Source: Agathobacter sp.
GTDB lineage: Bacteria; Bacillota; Clostridia; Lachnospirales; Lachnospiraceae
Direction of reading: 5' to 3'
DNA length: 64,000 bases
NCBI GenBank assembly: GCA_017409825.1
Contig: JAFQRZ010000004.1
Span: forward strand, 1-64,000
Position numbers and translations under genes: made by a program. Of the stretch, positions 38,988-45,969 are shown piece after piece (the first letter of the stretch is position 1; every line of letters begins with the position of its first letter). Below the pieces are notes generated by a model. The model worked only from the letters and a program-made list of their open reading frames with translations. It was not told where the DNA came from and did not search any database.

Positions 38988-39058
38988 CTGGCCCACAAGG
39001 ATTCGAACCTTGGATGACGGAGTCAGAGTCCGTTGCCTTACCGCTTGGCGATGGGCCA
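38988..39058 (-). tRNA. tRNA-Gln (anticodon CTG)
   Basis: A 71-nt cloverleaf on the minus strand. The acceptor stem TGGCCCA pairs with TGGGCCA, the discriminator is G, the D arm is GCC..GGC, the anticodon arm is ACGGA-CTCTGAC-TCCGT with CTG at positions 34-36, and the T arm is CAAGG-TTCGAAT-CCTTG. CCA is not encoded (the next bases are CTA). It reads CAG codons. It stands alone, with its own consensus promoter and terminator. Confidence 0.96.
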
Positions 39059-39969: not shown

Positions 39970-42534
39970 ATGACTTATAACAAGAGTTCAACCAAAAAGC
40001 GTATTAAAAATGCGAACTCGAAAAAAACAAAGATAAAAAATAAACTCGGACTAACAGGACTGCAGATTGGTCTTATTGCATTCATTGTTGTTGTCGTGAT
40101 TGTTTGTTCTGCTTTACTTGGCATTGCAAAAGGAATCATTGATTCTGCTCCAGACATCTCCAAAATCGACGTAGTACCAACTGGTTTTTCTACTTCCGTT
40201 TTGGCAGATGACGGCGTTACAGAAATCACCACATTAGTTGGTTCTGGTGCCAATCGTGAATATGTAAAATTAGACCGCATTCCAGACCATATGCAGCAAG
40301 CGTTTGTTGCAATTGAAGATGAACGTTTCTACGAGCATAACGGCATTGATTTGCAGAGTATCGCACGAGCAGGCGTTGCTACCGTACAAAAATTATTGAC
40401 AGGCAGTGGTAGCATTCAGGGCGGTAGTACCATCACACAGCAGTTAATCAAAAACAATGTCTTAACCAGCTGGACTGGCGAAAAAAACATGCTCGAAAAG
40501 ATTCAACGCAAGCTCCAGGAACAGTATCTCGCCTTGAAATTAGAAGAACAAATCAATGACAAGGATTGGATTTTAGAAAACTACTTAAATACCATTAACT
40601 TGGGTTCTAATACTTTGGGTGTTCAATCTGCAGCCAATAAATACTTTGGCAAAGACGTATCTGAACTCACACTTTCCGAAAGTGCTGTTATCGCTGGTAT
40701 TACACAAAATCCTTATGGATACGACCCAATTCGTTTTCCAGAAAAAAATGCGCAACGACGCGAGCGTGTATTAAATAATATGCTTGAGCAGAAATATATT
40801 TCTAAAGCACAATACGATGAAGCCTTAGCCGATCCCGTTTACGACAGAATCTCATCCTACAACGTAGAAACTACGACTTCCTATAACACTTACTTTGTAG
40901 ATGCATTAATTGACGATGTTTTGGATGACTTAATCAATAAAGCGGGGTATACGGAATCGGATGCATATAAAGCGCTTTATCATGGTGGATTAACGATTGT
41001 TTCTACTCAAGATTTAAACATTCAAAAAATATGCGACGAAGAAGTCAATAATGAAAAAAACTATTTTGCTAAACCTAGATATTCGTTTCATATGTCATTC
41101 TCTGTAAAAAAAGCCGATGGAAGCACCAAAGCATACACGCACCTAACCATGCTTTCTTACTATAGAAATAAACAGACTTCCGAATTTAGCATTATTTATC
41201 CTACGGAAGACGCATGTTATGATGCTATCAGACAATATCAGAAAGATATTTTAGAAGAAGGCGATAGTATTGTAGAAGGTACTGAATCCATCCTTATCAC
41301 GTTACAGCCACAGGTTGCAGCAACAGTTATCGACCAGAGCACTGGCGAAGTAAAAGCGCTAGTTGGTGGCCGTGGAGACAAGACCGGAAATCGTATTTGG
41401 AATCGAGCTACTGACACCAAACGTCAGCCAGGTTCTACATTTAAGATTGTATCTTGTTATGCTGCTGCCTTGGATGCTGCTGGAAAAACACTTGCATCCG
41501 TACAGGATGACGCCCCATTAAAAGTTGGCGACAAAGAATATAAGAACGATCTTGAGAACGAATTCTATGGTTTAACCACTATGCGCGAAGCCATTCGTCA
41601 TTCTCATAATATTACAGCGTTAAAATTTGCACAAGAAATTGGGATTAATCTCTGCTATGAATATGCTACAAAATTTGGTTTCTCGTCTTTAACAGAAAGC
41701 GACAAGACTTTGAGCCTTCCTCTTGGAGGATTAACCACTGGTGTTACCACTCTTGAACTTGCTTCTGCTTATGCTTCTATTGCAAATGCAGGGGAATATA
41801 TTGAGCCAAGCTTCTATACGGCCGTATATGACCACGAGGGAAATCTCATCTTAGATAACACGAAACAAGAACAGCACAGAGTCATTAGCGAAGAAACTGC
41901 CTGGTTGTTGACCGAAGCAATGCGAGATGTTATGACGCTTGGAACTGGTAGAGAAGCTTATTTTGGAAGCACCATGGAACAGGCTGGTAAGTCCGGTACA
42001 ACTACCGACTGTCGCGACATTCTTTTTGCTGGATATACCCCATACTACACAACCGTTATTTGGGGCGGTTACGATGACAACACAGGTCAAGTTCCAGAAG
42101 AACGTGGATATATACGAGCCATTTGGAAAGCTGCTATGAAACGTATGCATGAAAATTTGGAATATAAAGATTTTAAGAAGCCATCTTCTATTACCACTGC
42201 AGACGTATGTATTATGTCAGGATTATCTCCATTAGAAGGTGCTTGCGAATTTTGCCAAAAGGGAAATGCAATTTACGAAGAATATTTTGCTATCGGCACA
42301 GTTCCAACTGAAACCTGTGACCATCATATCACTTTAGATATTTGTTCCGAGACAGGTATGATAGCAAGTGCGAACTGTCCGGAATCGCAGATTGTAAAAA
42401 AAGTATTTATTATTGATGCAGATACTGAAACGATGGATAAACCATATATTGCAACAGAAGAATTCTTATCCACTACCTGTACGCATCACTCCGAAAGCAA
42501 AGCGAACAACTTCACAACCAGCGATGATGACTAG
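39970..42534 (+). CDS. Class A penicillin-binding protein (transglycosylase/transpeptidase)
   Basis: An 854-residue bifunctional peptidoglycan synthase. A basic cytoplasmic start (residues 1-28) precedes one membrane helix (about 32-55). The GT51 domain has AIEDERFYEHNGID and GGSTITQQLIKNNVL. The transpeptidase domain has the SxxK serine in KRQPGSTFKIV (about residue 490), SHN as HSHNIT, and KSGTT as AGKSGTTTD (about 677). The C-terminal region (740-854) is Cys-rich (CEFCQ, CDHH, CSET, CPES, CTHH), which is unusual and could bind metal or form disulfides. RBS ATAGGAGGCAATTTTT is strong. Its end faces the long hairpin at 42615. Confidence 0.95.
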   Translation: MTYNKSSTKKRIKNANSKKTKIKNKLGLTGLQIGLIAFIVVVVIVCSALLGIAKGIIDSAPDISKIDVVPTGFSTSVLADDGVTEITTLVGSGANREYVKLDRIPDHMQQAFVAIEDERFYEHNGIDLQSIARAGVATVQKLLTGSGSIQGGSTITQQLIKNNVLTSWTGEKNMLEKIQRKLQEQYLALKLEEQINDKDWILENYLNTINLGSNTLGVQSAANKYFGKDVSELTLSESAVIAGITQNPYGYDPIRFPEKNAQRRERVLNNMLEQKYISKAQYDEALADPVYDRISSYNVETTTSYNTYFVDALIDDVLDDLINKAGYTESDAYKALYHGGLTIVSTQDLNIQKICDEEVNNEKNYFAKPRYSFHMSFSVKKADGSTKAYTHLTMLSYYRNKQTSEFSIIYPTEDACYDAIRQYQKDILEEGDSIVEGTESILITLQPQVAATVIDQSTGEVKALVGGRGDKTGNRIWNRATDTKRQPGSTFKIVSCYAAALDAAGKTLASVQDDAPLKVGDKEYKNDLENEFYGLTTMREAIRHSHNITALKFAQEIGINLCYEYATKFGFSSLTESDKTLSLPLGGLTTGVTTLELASAYASIANAGEYIEPSFYTAVYDHEGNLILDNTKQEQHRVISEETAWLLTEAMRDVMTLGTGREAYFGSTMEQAGKSGTTTDCRDILFAGYTPYYTTVIWGGYDDNTGQVPEERGYIRAIWKAAMKRMHENLEYKDFKKPSSITTADVCIMSGLSPLEGACEFCQKGNAIYEEYFAIGTVPTETCDHHITLDICSETGMIASANCPESQIVKKVFIIDADTETMDKPYIATEEFLSTTCTHHSESKANNFTTSDDD

Positions 42535-42614
42535 AATCGTATGGAGCATTTCCTCTTTGAAGCAATGGAATCGTATGGAGCATTTTATTTTTGAAATAAT
42601 GTAAACCAACTAAG

Positions 42615-42683
42615 AAAACCCCTAGAATATAAAATTGGAAGTCTTATGTCAATACAGCGACAATTTTATATTCTAGGGGTTTT
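42615..42683. repeat. Long perfect hairpin with conserved loop (copy 1)
   Basis: Perfect 23-bp arms (42615-42637 and 42661-42683), starting AAAACCCCTAGAATATAAAA, enclose a 23-nt loop (42638-42660) that begins GAAGTCTTATG and ends ATACAGCGA. It lies between two convergent genes, 12 nt from the stop of glutamine synthetase, and may end both transcripts. A second hairpin at 44996-45070 has an unrelated stem but nearly the same loop. Confidence 0.85.
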
Positions 42684-42695
42684 CGTATTATTTAA

Positions 42696-44819
42696 TTACA
42701 CTTCAAAAATCAAATCTCCATACGATGGCATTGGCCACATTGACTTGTCGACAATCATTTCCAGCTTATCTACAGGATCACGAAGCTGTTCCATGGCTGC
42801 ATTCACTTCATCTCTATAATAACGTGCCTGCGCTGCTCCGCGTTCCATTCGGAAGGCTTTTTCTGTTACATCCTGCAACTTAACCATAGCCTCCTTTGTT
42901 TCTTCCAAACACTTTGAAGTTTCCTTCAAAAGAGATATCTGAACATTTACTGGCGCCTCTGGACACGCAGCTTTTACTGAATTGATACTATCTGCCAAAA
43001 CCGTCGTATAACGAATGACCGCTGGGACAATCTGCTTGGTGGCAATATCAATCATCGCTTTCGCCTCAATATTCAGTGTTTTCGCATAGATTTCGTATTC
43101 AATTTCCATACGAGATTCCAATTCGCTTCTACTGAATACGCCAAATTTTTCAAACAACTCTACCGATGCTGGAGCAACGTATTCTGGAATTGCATCCACC
43201 ATACATTCCAAATTTGGAAGTCCACGACGTGCCGCCTCTTCGACCCATTCTTCAGAATATCCATCACCATTAAAAATAATACGTTCATGTGCCTGCGCAT
43301 ACTCCTGAATCAAACTATGCACAGCAGCATCAAAATCTTCCGCATTTTCTAGTACATCACACGCCTCTGCAAAAGCTTCTGCAACGATAGTATTTAAAAT
43401 TACATTCGACTGTGCCACAGAATCCTGTGAGCCTACCATACGAAATTCAAATTTATTTCCGGTAAAAGCAAATGGAGACGTACGATTTCTATCTGCTGCA
43501 TCCTTACGGAAGTCCGGTAATGTTTTTACCCCAGTGGAAAGCCCTTCCCCTTTAATGCTATGTGTAGCAGCACCTTTTTCCATATACTGTGCCAAAATAT
43601 CTTCTAACTGTTCTCCAAGATAAACAGAAATAATCGCTGGAGGTGCTTCATGTGCACCTAAACGGTGATCATTTCCTACATCTGCTGCAGAAGCACGGAG
43701 TAAACCAGCATGCTTATCCACCGCTTTTAACACACATGCTAAAACCAAAAGGAACTGTGCATTCTCATGTGGTTTCTTACCTGGATCCAATAAATTGATT
43801 CCATCATCTGTCGTAAGCGACCAGTTATTATGCTTACCAGAACCATTTACCCCATCAAATGGCTTTTCATGCAGCAGACACTGAAGTCCATGTCTACCTG
43901 CAACCTTTTTTAAGGTTTCCATTACGAGTTGATTATGGTCTACTGCCACATTACATTCTGCATAAATTGGCGCCATCTCATGCTGTGCCGGAGCCGCTTC
44001 ATTGTGTTCTGTTTTTGAGGTAACTCCAAGCTTCCAAAGTTCAACGTCTACGTCCTTCATATATGCCGCAATACGTTCACGAATAGAACCGAAATAATGG
44101 TCATCCATTTCCTGTCCCTTTGGAGGCATTGCTCCAAAAAGTGTACGTCCAGTAAATACCAAATCTTTTCTTTTTAGATATTTTTCTCTATCTACAAGGA
44201 AGTATTCCTGCTCCGCGCCTACAGAAGGGGTTACCTTCTTTGATGTGGTATTGCCAAACAAGCGAAGTAAACGAAGTGATTGTTCTCCCACCGCCTGCAT
44301 AGAACGAAGTAATGGTGTTTTCTGGTCTAATGCTTCACCTGTATAAGAACAAAATGCTGTAGGGATACAAAGTGTTGCACCACCTGCATCCTGTCGCACA
44401 AAGGCAGGGGATGTACAATCCCATGCAGTATAACCTCTCGCTTCAAATGTTGCACGAAGTCCACCAGATGGGAATGAAGACGCATCCGCTTCCCCTTTGA
44501 TTAATTCTTTTCCAGAGAAACTCATAAGCACCTTTCCGCTATCCATCGGTGCAGTAATAAAAGAATCGTGTTTTTCTGCAGTTACACCAGTAAGCGGCTG
44601 GAACCAATGTGTAAAATGAGTGGCACCCTTTTCAATCGCCCATTCCTTCATCTCATGTGCAATAACATCTGCAGTTTCGATATCCAACTCGCCACCCTCT
44701 GCAATAATCTGATGAAGTTTACTGTACACTTTCTTTGGAAGACGTGCCTGCATCACAGAATCATTAAACACGTTCTCTCCAAATATTTCAGATACATTGA
44801 TTCTCAAATTCTCGTTCAT
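42696..44819 (-). CDS. glnA: Glutamine synthetase type III
   Basis: A 707-residue GSIII (GlnN-type) enzyme making glutamine from glutamate, ammonia and ATP, in a dodecamer of larger subunits than types I and II. Recognised segments include FTHWFQPLTG (about residue 60), EKHDSFI, KKVTPSVGAEQEYFLVD, HNEAAPAQHEMAPI and KPFDGVNGSGKHNNWSL. Length is normal for GSIII, which is common in Bacteroidetes, Clostridia and cyanobacteria. AGAAAGGGAAATTC precedes ATG. A 23-bp palindromic site and an AT-rich leader lie upstream. The gene is flanked on both sides by the conserved-loop hairpins. Confidence 0.96.
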   Translation of the reverse strand: MNENLRINVSEIFGENVFNDSVMQARLPKKVYSKLHQIIAEGGELDIETADVIAHEMKEWAIEKGATHFTHWFQPLTGVTAEKHDSFITAPMDSGKVLMSFSGKELIKGEADASSFPSGGLRATFEARGYTAWDCTSPAFVRQDAGGATLCIPTAFCSYTGEALDQKTPLLRSMQAVGEQSLRLLRLFGNTTSKKVTPSVGAEQEYFLVDREKYLKRKDLVFTGRTLFGAMPPKGQEMDDHYFGSIRERIAAYMKDVDVELWKLGVTSKTEHNEAAPAQHEMAPIYAECNVAVDHNQLVMETLKKVAGRHGLQCLLHEKPFDGVNGSGKHNNWSLTTDDGINLLDPGKKPHENAQFLLVLACVLKAVDKHAGLLRASAADVGNDHRLGAHEAPPAIISVYLGEQLEDILAQYMEKGAATHSIKGEGLSTGVKTLPDFRKDAADRNRTSPFAFTGNKFEFRMVGSQDSVAQSNVILNTIVAEAFAEACDVLENAEDFDAAVHSLIQEYAQAHERIIFNGDGYSEEWVEEAARRGLPNLECMVDAIPEYVAPASVELFEKFGVFSRSELESRMEIEYEIYAKTLNIEAKAMIDIATKQIVPAVIRYTTVLADSINSVKAACPEAPVNVQISLLKETSKCLEETKEAMVKLQDVTEKAFRMERGAAQARYYRDEVNAAMEQLRDPVDKLEMIVDKSMWPMPSYGDLIFEV

Positions 44820-44902
44820 GAATTTCCCTTTCTAAACTAGTATCCCGCCGAATAAAACCGACTTGACGTTTAAGTATATCTAATAAATATCGTCTTATTA
44901 TG

Positions 44903-44925
44903 TATAAAATCTTATCAATTTTATA
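44903..44925. promoter_or_regulatory. Palindromic site upstream of glutamine synthetase
   Basis: TATAAAAT and ATTTTATA (perfect 8-bp arms) are separated by 7 nt, about 80 nt before the glnA start. It does not match the GlnR/TnrA site TGTNAN7TNACA. It may be an operator or part of an AT-rich promoter. Confidence 0.3.
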
Positions 44926-44995
44926 TCGTAAATATACTCCTTATTCCTCTATCTGTAAAGATAAAATTTGCTGTTTTTTATTTTGCACAAAGTAA

Positions 44996-45070
44996 GAACT
45001 CCCCATCTATATATTCATTTAGAAGCCTTACGCCAGTACAGCGATAAATGAATATATAGATGGGGAGTTC
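44996..45070. repeat. Long perfect hairpin with conserved loop (copy 2)
   Basis: Perfect 26-bp arms (44996-45021 and 45045-45070), starting GAACTCCCCATCTATATATT, enclose a 23-nt loop (45022-45044) that begins GAAGCCTTACG and ends GTACAGCGA. The loop is 19/23 identical to that of copy 1, with four transitions and no length change. It lies 36 nt after the aldolase stop codon, on the minus strand side, without a strong T run, so it may not be only a terminator. Confidence 0.85.
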
Positions 45071-45105
45071 GTAGTTTATTCAATACCTAAATCAAACAGC
45101 AAATC

Positions 45106-45969
45106 TTATGCTTTGCCAACAGAACCAAAAAGTTCCATTTTTTCTTTTACAGTTGCTTTGATAGCTTCAGTACCAGGAGCAAGTAATTTACGAGGGTCAA
45201 ATCCTTTGCCTTCTAAATCTTTACCAGCTTCTACGTATGTACGTGTAGCTGCAGCAAATGATAACTGACATTCTGTATTTACGTTGATCTTAGCTACGCC
45301 AAGGTCGATTGCTTTCTTAATCATTTCTTCTGGGATACCTGTACCACCATGAAGTACTAATGGCATTGTACCTGTTTTTTCCTGAATAGCATCCAATGTT
45401 TCGAAGCTAAGTCCTGCCCAGTTTGCTGGGTATTTACCATGGATATTACCGATACCAGCTGCAAGCATATCTACGCCAAGATCAGCGATTGCTTTACATT
45501 CATCTGGATCTGCACATTCACCAGCACCTACTACACCATCTTCTTCTCCACCGATAGAACCAACTTCAGCTTCGATAGATAATCCTAACTGATGAGCAAC
45601 TGCTACTAATTCTTTTGTCTTTGCAACGTTTTCTTCAATTGAGAAATGTGAGCCGTCAAACATGATTGATGTGAAACCAGCTTTGATACATTTGTAGCAT
45701 CCGTCGTATGAGCCGTGATCTAAGTGAAGTGCTACAGGAACTGTGATTCCAAGTTCTTCATCCATAGCTTTTACCATAGCTGCAACTGTCTTGAAACCTG
45801 TCATGTACTTTCCAGCACCTTCAGATACACCAAGAATAACTGGAGAGTTTAATTCCTGTGCTGTTAAAAGGATAGCCTTTGTCCATTCTAAGTTGTTGAT
45901 GTTGAACTGTCCAACTGCATAGTGGCCAGCTTTTGCTTTGTCGAGCATCTCTTTTGCTGATACTAACAT
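45106..45969 (-). CDS. fba: Class II fructose-1,6-bisphosphate aldolase
   Basis: A 287-residue zinc-dependent aldolase of glycolysis and gluconeogenesis. Signatures: VPVALHLDHGSYDGCYKCI with the zinc His (about residues 74-92), the second zinc region AEVGSIGGEEDGVVG, and GNIHGKYP with VLHGGTGIPEEMIKKAI. It starts MLVSAKEMLDKAKAGHYAVG (20 residues), with AGGAGGACAATAAA before ATG. It appears monocistronic between the conserved-loop hairpin and the lipid kinase gene. Confidence 0.97.
   Translation of the reverse strand: MLVSAKEMLDKAKAGHYAVGQFNINNLEWTKAILLTAQELNSPVILGVSEGAGKYMTGFKTVAAMVKAMDEELGITVPVALHLDHGSYDGCYKCIKAGFTSIMFDGSHFSIEENVAKTKELVAVAHQLGLSIEAEVGSIGGEEDGVVGAGECADPDECKAIADLGVDMLAAGIGNIHGKYPANWAGLSFETLDAIQEKTGTMPLVLHGGTGIPEEMIKKAIDLGVAKINVNTECQLSFAAATRTYVEAGKDLEGKGFDPRKLLAPGTEAIKATVKEKMELFGSVGKA

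Follow-up and report, generated by a model that had tools for sequence, protein, structure and literature searches.

A dispersed family of 3′-end hairpins in Agathobacter with conserved tips, varying stems and inverted copies of adjacent gene ends

The first 64,000 nucleotides of contig JAFQRZ010000004.1 from Agathobacter sp. (GenBank assembly GCA_017409825.1; hereafter the window and the window genome) hold two long hairpins that belong to a family dispersed through the genome. Members share a 23-nt loop on a stem that varies in sequence while continuing to pair, and at most loci the pairing resumes outside the stem as an outer inverted repeat. The backwards copies of gene ends found in these repeats suggest that the DNA copying machinery wrote the stems by folding back on itself. 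We consider it probable, though well short of certain, that this is an old, dispersed family of 3′-end elements at terminator sites, with arms written and renewed by fold-back template switching and a tip that is conserved. The two hairpins of the window and the genes they follow are:

42612..42686, minus strand: hairpin element 1, a match to covariance model R1; stem 42614-42637 / 42661-42684, loop 42638-42660 (glnA messenger sense is minus)
42696..44819, minus strand: glnA, glutamine synthetase type III, host gene of element 1 (open reading frame (ORF) and Pfam)
44996..45070, minus strand: hairpin element 2, between fba and glnA; stem 44996-45021 / 45045-45070, loop 45022-45044
45106..45969, minus strand: fba, class-II fructose-bisphosphate aldolase, host gene of element 2 (ORF and Pfam)

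Both hairpins had been picked out in a sequence-only reading of the window and are present where it placed them, with loops of 23 nt that are identical at 19 of 23 positions and whose four differences are all transitions. Of the stem lengths it gave, 26 bp is correct, while the perfect Watson-Crick stem described as 23 bp is 24 bp. Its placement of the hairpins after the minus-strand stop codons of glnA and fba agrees with the ORF calls and Pfam assignments. With up to three mismatches allowed, the loop pattern has exactly two matches in the window and none in 100 shuffles, and 35 matches in the 2.80-Mb window genome, where the reversed pattern has none; these further copies speak against the coincidence or local duplication that the same reading had offered as the alternative. 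All but one of the 35 sit on a stem of about 17 bp or more (34/35), interrupted in a few copies by a single mismatch, wobble or extra base; the remaining match is partial and lies next to a full copy in L020. That reading had also proposed a covariance-model search of related genomes. Model R1 at E ≤ 0.01 (E-values of our models are rough) finds the family in 2 of 62 genus genomes, namely the window genome (97% complete) and Agathobacter sp. RGIG4703, a roe-deer rectum assembly (71% complete), and compensatory stem changes are found.

Across 49 copies from these two genomes, 96.6% of the cells in a 31-pair structure are standard pairs, both partners have changed somewhere in 25 of the 26 outer-stem pairs, and covariation scores 0.784, where shuffles give 0.171 and slid registers no more than 0.190. 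Double-changed cells number 451 against 119 in shuffles. Among 31 paralogues, mid-stem identity is 0.76, near chance (shuffled null 0.72), and loop identity is 0.89, with the inner stem partly conserved, so the proposal that stems vary while pairing and the loop is held extends to the family as a whole. Loop positions 10 and 15 covary as well (T-A in 24 of the 49 copies, C-G in 20, T-G in 4, unpaired in 1), indicating a small hairpin inside the loop, which is therefore not simply unpaired. One RGIG4703 element (L053, C81:36216-36290) is nested in a second long inverted repeat, AGAGCTGTCGTAAGGCAG / CTGCCTTACGACAGTTCT, with a fold of -89.5 kcal/mol.

Three observations go beyond the sequence-only reading: the outer inverted copy of the gene end, a longer relative of the loop, and the occurrence of the 23-nt loop in two genomes only. 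For the first of these we scored the left flank of each copy against its own reverse-complemented right flank, leaving out the partial copy in L020. The mean score was 34.2 for the 34 own copies and 15.5 for flanks of different copies. Measured against a mismatched-pair control with its 95% point at 21 and 99% point at 25, the outer inverted repeat exceeds the first in 29 of 34 copies and the second in 25, and the right outer arm often extends into the 3′ coding sequence of the adjacent gene. The corresponding features of the window are:

42563..42595, plus strand: inverted copy of the glnA 3′ end, pairing with 42702-42733 (arm score 44, against the control points of 21 and 25)
42702..42733, minus strand: glnA 3′ coding end, source of the copy at 42563-42595 (inverted-repeat and coding-end alignment)
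42534..42601, plus strand: two tandem 34-nt units (direct repeat D1, 85% identical) that hold the inverted glnA end
44957..44980, plus strand: outer inverted-repeat arm of element 2, pairing with 45088-45114 (arm score 31)
45088..45114, minus strand: other outer arm of element 2, consisting of fba 3′ untranslated region, stop codon and last codons
39970..42534, plus strand: penicillin-binding protein gene (transglycosylase and transpeptidase), convergent with glnA (ORF and Pfam)

The D1 tandem units start on the final base (42534) of the penicillin-binding protein gene's stop codon. L012 is the one junction read, by eye, for short homology at a switch point: there the convergent gene meets the inverted copy at the 3 nt GAT and seems to take its stop codon from that copy, its last residues staying as they are in a close species. 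Most element loci have an outer inverted repeat, and no element-free gene end that was tested has one. In a stricter coding-end test, none of 22 element-free genes in C21:1-84000 lies above the 95% point of 19. We also looked at 12 genes in three close species (11 of them in G012, 12 in G042 and 7 in G014), the closest by GlnA identity (86-88%); none has a model match, and two of these genomes are incomplete (58% and 84%). All 30 of their orthologous gene ends give fold-back scores of 12 to 22, and 8 of 12 window-genome genes score above 22. Insertion of the element into a pre-existing long palindrome finds no support in these gene ends. A reverse-complement copy of adjacent sequence that is absent in relatives is a feature of template switching, although it is not seen in every copy here (29/34). 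The copying is in line with the template-switch mutation known from RNA hairpins (PMC8794818) and from quasipalindromes (PMC7202029).

A second sign of copying at the DNA level is the scarcity of G-U pairs, which make up 17 of 1383 pairs (1.2%) in 52 element helices and 37 of 421 (8.8%) in 30 close-species helices, bearing in mind that pairs within a helix and the sequences themselves are not independent. The count started from 53 elements, with L020 represented by its partial copy, and one was dropped for a helix shorter than 7 bp. Together with the double-changed cells reported above, this amounts to compensatory change without G-U intermediates, another feature of template switching. When inverted flanks from the two genomes were compared to gene ends, the gene end of the same species scored better in 20 of 28 arms, equal in 4 and lower in 4, a comparison that includes arms without a clear copy. 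Diagnostic sites favour the own gene 70 to 7, a count that is biased in that the arms were aligned to their own gene. From the score comparison, on which we rely, renewal of the arms after the species split seems likely.

The element may be pictured as a conserved tip (23 nt or about 90 nt), a mostly conserved inner stem, a middle stem in which little beyond pairing is kept, and conserved outer flanks. The hairpin would stall the nascent DNA strand or let it fold back, and the folded strand would then copy its own other arm, sometimes running on into the gene end and leaving an inverted copy of it on the far side of the hairpin. Selection would remove events that overwrite the coding side, which would explain why the far side carries the copy. 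Template switching during replication would be the copying process, and a recurrent one, while the apical domain may be held because a protein, an RNA or a recombinase recognises it. The family would also have spread as a mobile element, in keeping with the recent spread to which a 541-bp double-hairpin unit (below) points.

The position of the copies bears on what they do. A right-hand neighbour is present in 34 of 35 rows (these include the partial copy in L020, and ORFs were called mechanically) and points into the element in 30, its stop codon lying no farther than 45 nt past the 26-nt arm. Eighteen rows lie between convergent genes, 12 have the sense gene only, 3 the other gene only, 1 has neither gene pointing in and 1 has no right neighbour in the stretch. 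Given this orientation, messenger sense is mostly on the strand that reads UCGCUGUAYUGRCRUAAGRCUUC. Every one of the 30 gene ends from the three close species has a helix of 7 bp or more no farther than 110 nt from its stop codon, so the elements share with intrinsic terminators a stable hairpin just after the stop, in a place where relatives have one too. The elements most likely do the job of a terminator, often for two convergent genes, and the hairpin would itself terminate transcription. The sequence-only reading had listed a terminator or 3′ end with a conserved tip and a mobile palindromic element among its options; each fits, and neither is proven. The 14 host genes tested with Pfam encode glutamine synthetase, aldolase, SAICAR synthetase, carbamoyl-phosphate synthase, GH2, an FtsX permease, an EPSP/MurA-type protein, a class-II tRNA synthetase, RF3, PmbA/TldD, L20, an Fe-S protein, a nucleoside phosphorylase and SecD/F; the labels purC, carB, murA, aspS, prfC, rnfB, mtnN and secF were read from the sequences and go beyond the Pfam assignments.

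Model R1 also finds 8 further, more diverged places in the window genome. In a collection of 84,980 species, all 9 stretches found come from RGIG4703, the window genome possibly being outside the collection. Of the first 15 RGIG4703 elements fetched, 12 stand at places orthologous to window-genome elements, which makes many copies old enough to predate the species split. A single match in viral contigs (L050) and a single weak match in genome G006 (L036) were set aside, as neither has a stem by eye. In Rfam 15 no hairpin in the window or in 24 loci (18 with short, long or related forms) reaches the gathering threshold; only the tRNA at window positions 38988-39058 does, the best hairpin score being mir-1277 with 35.3 bits where 81 are needed, and permissive thresholds gave nothing relevant for the same sequences. 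A search of the open-access literature showed no description of the family. Other species of the genus have a conserved hairpin of their own after glnA (GAACCACGAAGCTGTGG; GAACCACGAAGCTGTGGAA on a varying terminator-like stem), which is separate from this family. The GAACCACGAAGCTGTGG hairpin has 27 matches in 25 of 62 genomes (two each in G019 and G056 and single ones otherwise), with 23 of these matches near a glnA hit, and the GAACCACGAAGCTGTGGAA-type glnA hairpin is absent from the window genome. In the glnA leader of relatives we observed by eye a hairpin, GAACGAGGGCGTTCCA...TGGAATGCCC, with a T-run, perhaps an attenuator, that was not seen in the leader of the window genome. Within the window genome, L134 (C31:130500-139500) and L135 (C34:58000-67000) each hold three variant hairpins with GACGCCTTGCGTAAGCACAGCGA-type loops, about 3-4 kb apart, and the stretches compared around these hairpins are identical between the contigs, indicating a duplicated segment.

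The longer relative has a covarying tip of about 90 nt and flanks similar to those of the short form, and its core pattern occurs at 10 places in the window genome, 8 in RGIG4703 and none in the 60 other genus members. Twenty-nine distinct tips (20 and 9 from the two genomes) align, with 18 of 27 predicted pairs changing on both sides; 22 of the 29 have a sense frame of 100 codons or more that stops no farther than 190 nt upstream, and 6 have a convergent one. For 3 of 12 orthologous genes (carB-like, murA-like and GH2; Pfam), the short form in the window genome is matched by a long form in RGIG4703 with a different stem and a similar outer flank. At E ≤ 0.001 the long-form model matches 87 of 397 sampled family genomes, own included, often in several copies, and these copy numbers are lower bounds as at most 8 candidates were scored per genome. 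In a phylum sample, 5 of 398 genomes match at E ≤ 1e-5, four of them in Lachnospiraceae, own included. All 11 fetched relative loci fold as long hairpins; an architecture script that recognised 17 of 30 relative loci and missed other long hairpins was not used for counts. By eye, the conserved parts that flank the inner helix (UCGCU ... AAGG) are alike in both forms, and the short form may be a reduced long form.

A number of results weigh against fold-back template switching at terminator sites. The highest mismatched control pair for the outer arms reached 55, and 5 of 34 copies (L002, L004, L020, L031 and L035, three of which form a GGAATATAATGG-like subfamily) are not above the 95% control. 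In the coding-end test, the five element genes of C21 scored 44 (glnA), 20 (fba), 14, 12 and 12. Fold-back scores above 22 were seen in only 4 of 12 RGIG4703 gene ends, and 2 of the 12 genes there (secF and rnfB) have neither form of the element. In three other genera, outer repeats exceed the 95% control in only 9 of 20 copies (G349 5/7, G108 3/8, G390 1/5), and those of G108 share a CATTTAAAAATCTC-like arm, so that they are part of the element there and not host-gene sequence. When arms were aligned first to the other species' gene end, the diagnostic sites split 14 to 13, and for this reason renewal after the split is treated as likely and not as established. Faster evolution of the middle stem than of the flanks is unsupported between orthologues (0.85 vs 0.78-0.85). 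On the terminator side, the stem is followed by only a weak T-run, averaging 5.5 T in 12 nt on the sense side and 4.9 on the antisense side; the sense side is richer in T in 26 cases, equal in 11 and poorer in 13 (n = 50). A simple terminator scan found none at the hairpins, although its loop limit of 8 nt makes it inapplicable to them. Stem wobbles favour the strand opposite to the mRNA (16 G.T vs 7 A.C); selection acting only on the mRNA hairpin would predict the opposite. As for enzymes, the Y1 (PF01797) transposase has no hit in the window genome or in RGIG4703, and reverse transcriptases number 2 in the window genome (C11:41292-41882 and C7:9300-9896) and none in the incomplete RGIG4703, leaving no shared candidate and no support for either enzyme as the mobiliser.

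The alternative that survives best is insertion by snap-back synthesis, in which transposition or retro-type insertion of the apical hairpin at gene 3′ ends primes copying of the flank, the copied gene end takes the place of the usual target-site duplication, and later divergence is ordinary. We regard it as possible but doubtful. It would account for the patchy distribution, the sense orientation after stop codons and the behaviour of a 541-bp double-hairpin unit that reaches the ends of contigs C8, C15 and C23 of the window genome. Over 428 nt its copies on the three contigs show 97-98% identity, and their left flanks are unrelated; the unit has therefore moved or been copied fairly recently. 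Its ends match (AAATTCCG/CGGAATTT), and the two matched pairs of contig ends are flanked by inverted, not direct, host sequence, which is only suggestive as the pairing rests on the same similarity. We did not find a parent transposon for the double unit, with no systematic search of other transposon families having been made. Several window-genome contigs (L199, L201, L203, L205, L210-L212) end at or inside the unit, and palindromes appear to break the assembly there. Opposed to snap-back insertion are the lack of a Y1 transposase and of a shared reverse transcriptase candidate, the age of the many copies at orthologous places (12/15) and the tendency of arms to follow the gene end of their own species, which asks for copying after the split. 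A broader version, to which we give a similarly tentative standing, is a class of small mobile elements found throughout Lachnospiraceae that multiplies by snap-back synthesis at gene 3′ ends, with the tip added after the stop codon, the new 3′ end folding back, and host DNA that includes the gene end copied as the second arm. If this were true, each copy would be both a terminator and a continually renewed fold-back record of its host gene, and the enzyme and insertion route would both be undescribed.

A regulon of 3′ elements, in which one protein or small RNA binds the tip and tunes mRNA stability or read-through, would suit an apical structure conserved across paralogues and, for the long form, across the family. 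Terminator-stem tips are known as aptamers for HMP-PP and guanidine-IV, according to the cited part of PMC8632094. We find a regulon unlikely all the same, given that the 14 Pfam-tested host genes share no evident theme, that presence is patchy between close species having the same genes, and that the long form can stand at the same gene in another species. Ordinary selection on RNA, with terminators or RNA-binding 3′ hairpins diverging by stepwise compensatory mutation and no special copying, is in keeping with the strong covariation, the sense orientation and the terminator position, and single compensated pairs do separate some orthologous stems (L007/L053 and L017/L054). It leaves unexplained the inverted coding copies outside the stem, which are absent at the orthologous genes of the three close species, and a G-U share of 1.2% where the terminator-like helices of those species have 8.8%, and we think it very improbable. 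Some amplification methods are known to produce inverted fold-back chimaeras, but 35 dispersed copies with a reversed control of 0, and orthologous copies with diverged arms in a second assembly, make an assembly artefact, coincidence or local duplication next to inconceivable.

Work on RNA evolution has yet to settle how long perfect stems originate and are kept up as their sequence changes. The answer proposed is template switching, and the evidence for maintenance is called circumstantial by the authors themselves in the cited portion of their work (PMC8794818). The present family offers replicates in the form of dozens of hairpins in one genome, orthologues in a second and element-free sites in three close species. 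Since the coding sequence marks which arm was the template and the hairpins are replicated, the process can be measured directly. The family also extends the set of structured 3′ elements in a major group of gut bacteria.

Among known systems, REP/BIME palindromes conserve their stem sequence and go with a Y1 (RAYT) transposase. The hairpins described here resemble them in being extragenic, palindromic, multicopy and sometimes arranged as head-to-head pairs, but their stem varies (mid-stem 0.76 vs 0.72 null) and neither genome has a Y1 gene; by these two tested features the family is not a REP/RAYT system. With miniature inverted-repeat transposable elements (MITEs), as portrayed in the cited part of PMC5896051, it has in common short, dispersed, non-coding copies with a strong hairpin and a patchy occurrence among relatives, and it differs in that no parent transposon was found, the flanks are inverted host copies and no direct target duplication was seen. 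The post-stop position, GC-rich stem base and conserved tip nucleotides recall intrinsic terminators and terminator aptamers (cited part of PMC8632094), whereas arms of about 26 bp, a weak T-run and a 23- to 90-nt tip common to unrelated genes do not. MRSC-65-2 is likewise a structured motif with many copies per genome and has been proposed to be selfish, and differs in its conserved repeat UYCCGG, its occurrence in diverse phyla and its sometime proximity to a transposase (passages cited from PMC11109978); the names Roseburia, Eubacterium, Lachnospir- and Agathobacter are absent from the main text of that paper (PMC11109978). The coding palindromes of nematomorph mitochondria are also perfect inverted repeats that include protein-coding sequence, though according to the cited part of PMC6649704 both of their arms are coding and lie inside genes, while here one arm is a gene end and the other a copy outside it. 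In template-switch RNA hairpins, perfect stems are made and corrected from the opposite arm (Monttinen & Loytynoja 2022, PMC8794818), and the portion of that study cited here describes the same multi-base compensatory change without G-U steps and the same retention of the loop. Those hairpins are microRNA and rRNA genes in reconstructed histories (PMC8794818), whereas ours form a dispersed multicopy bacterial family in which the copying extends into protein-coding ends. We place the hairpin family among the dispersed palindromic 3′ elements, as a variant of them.

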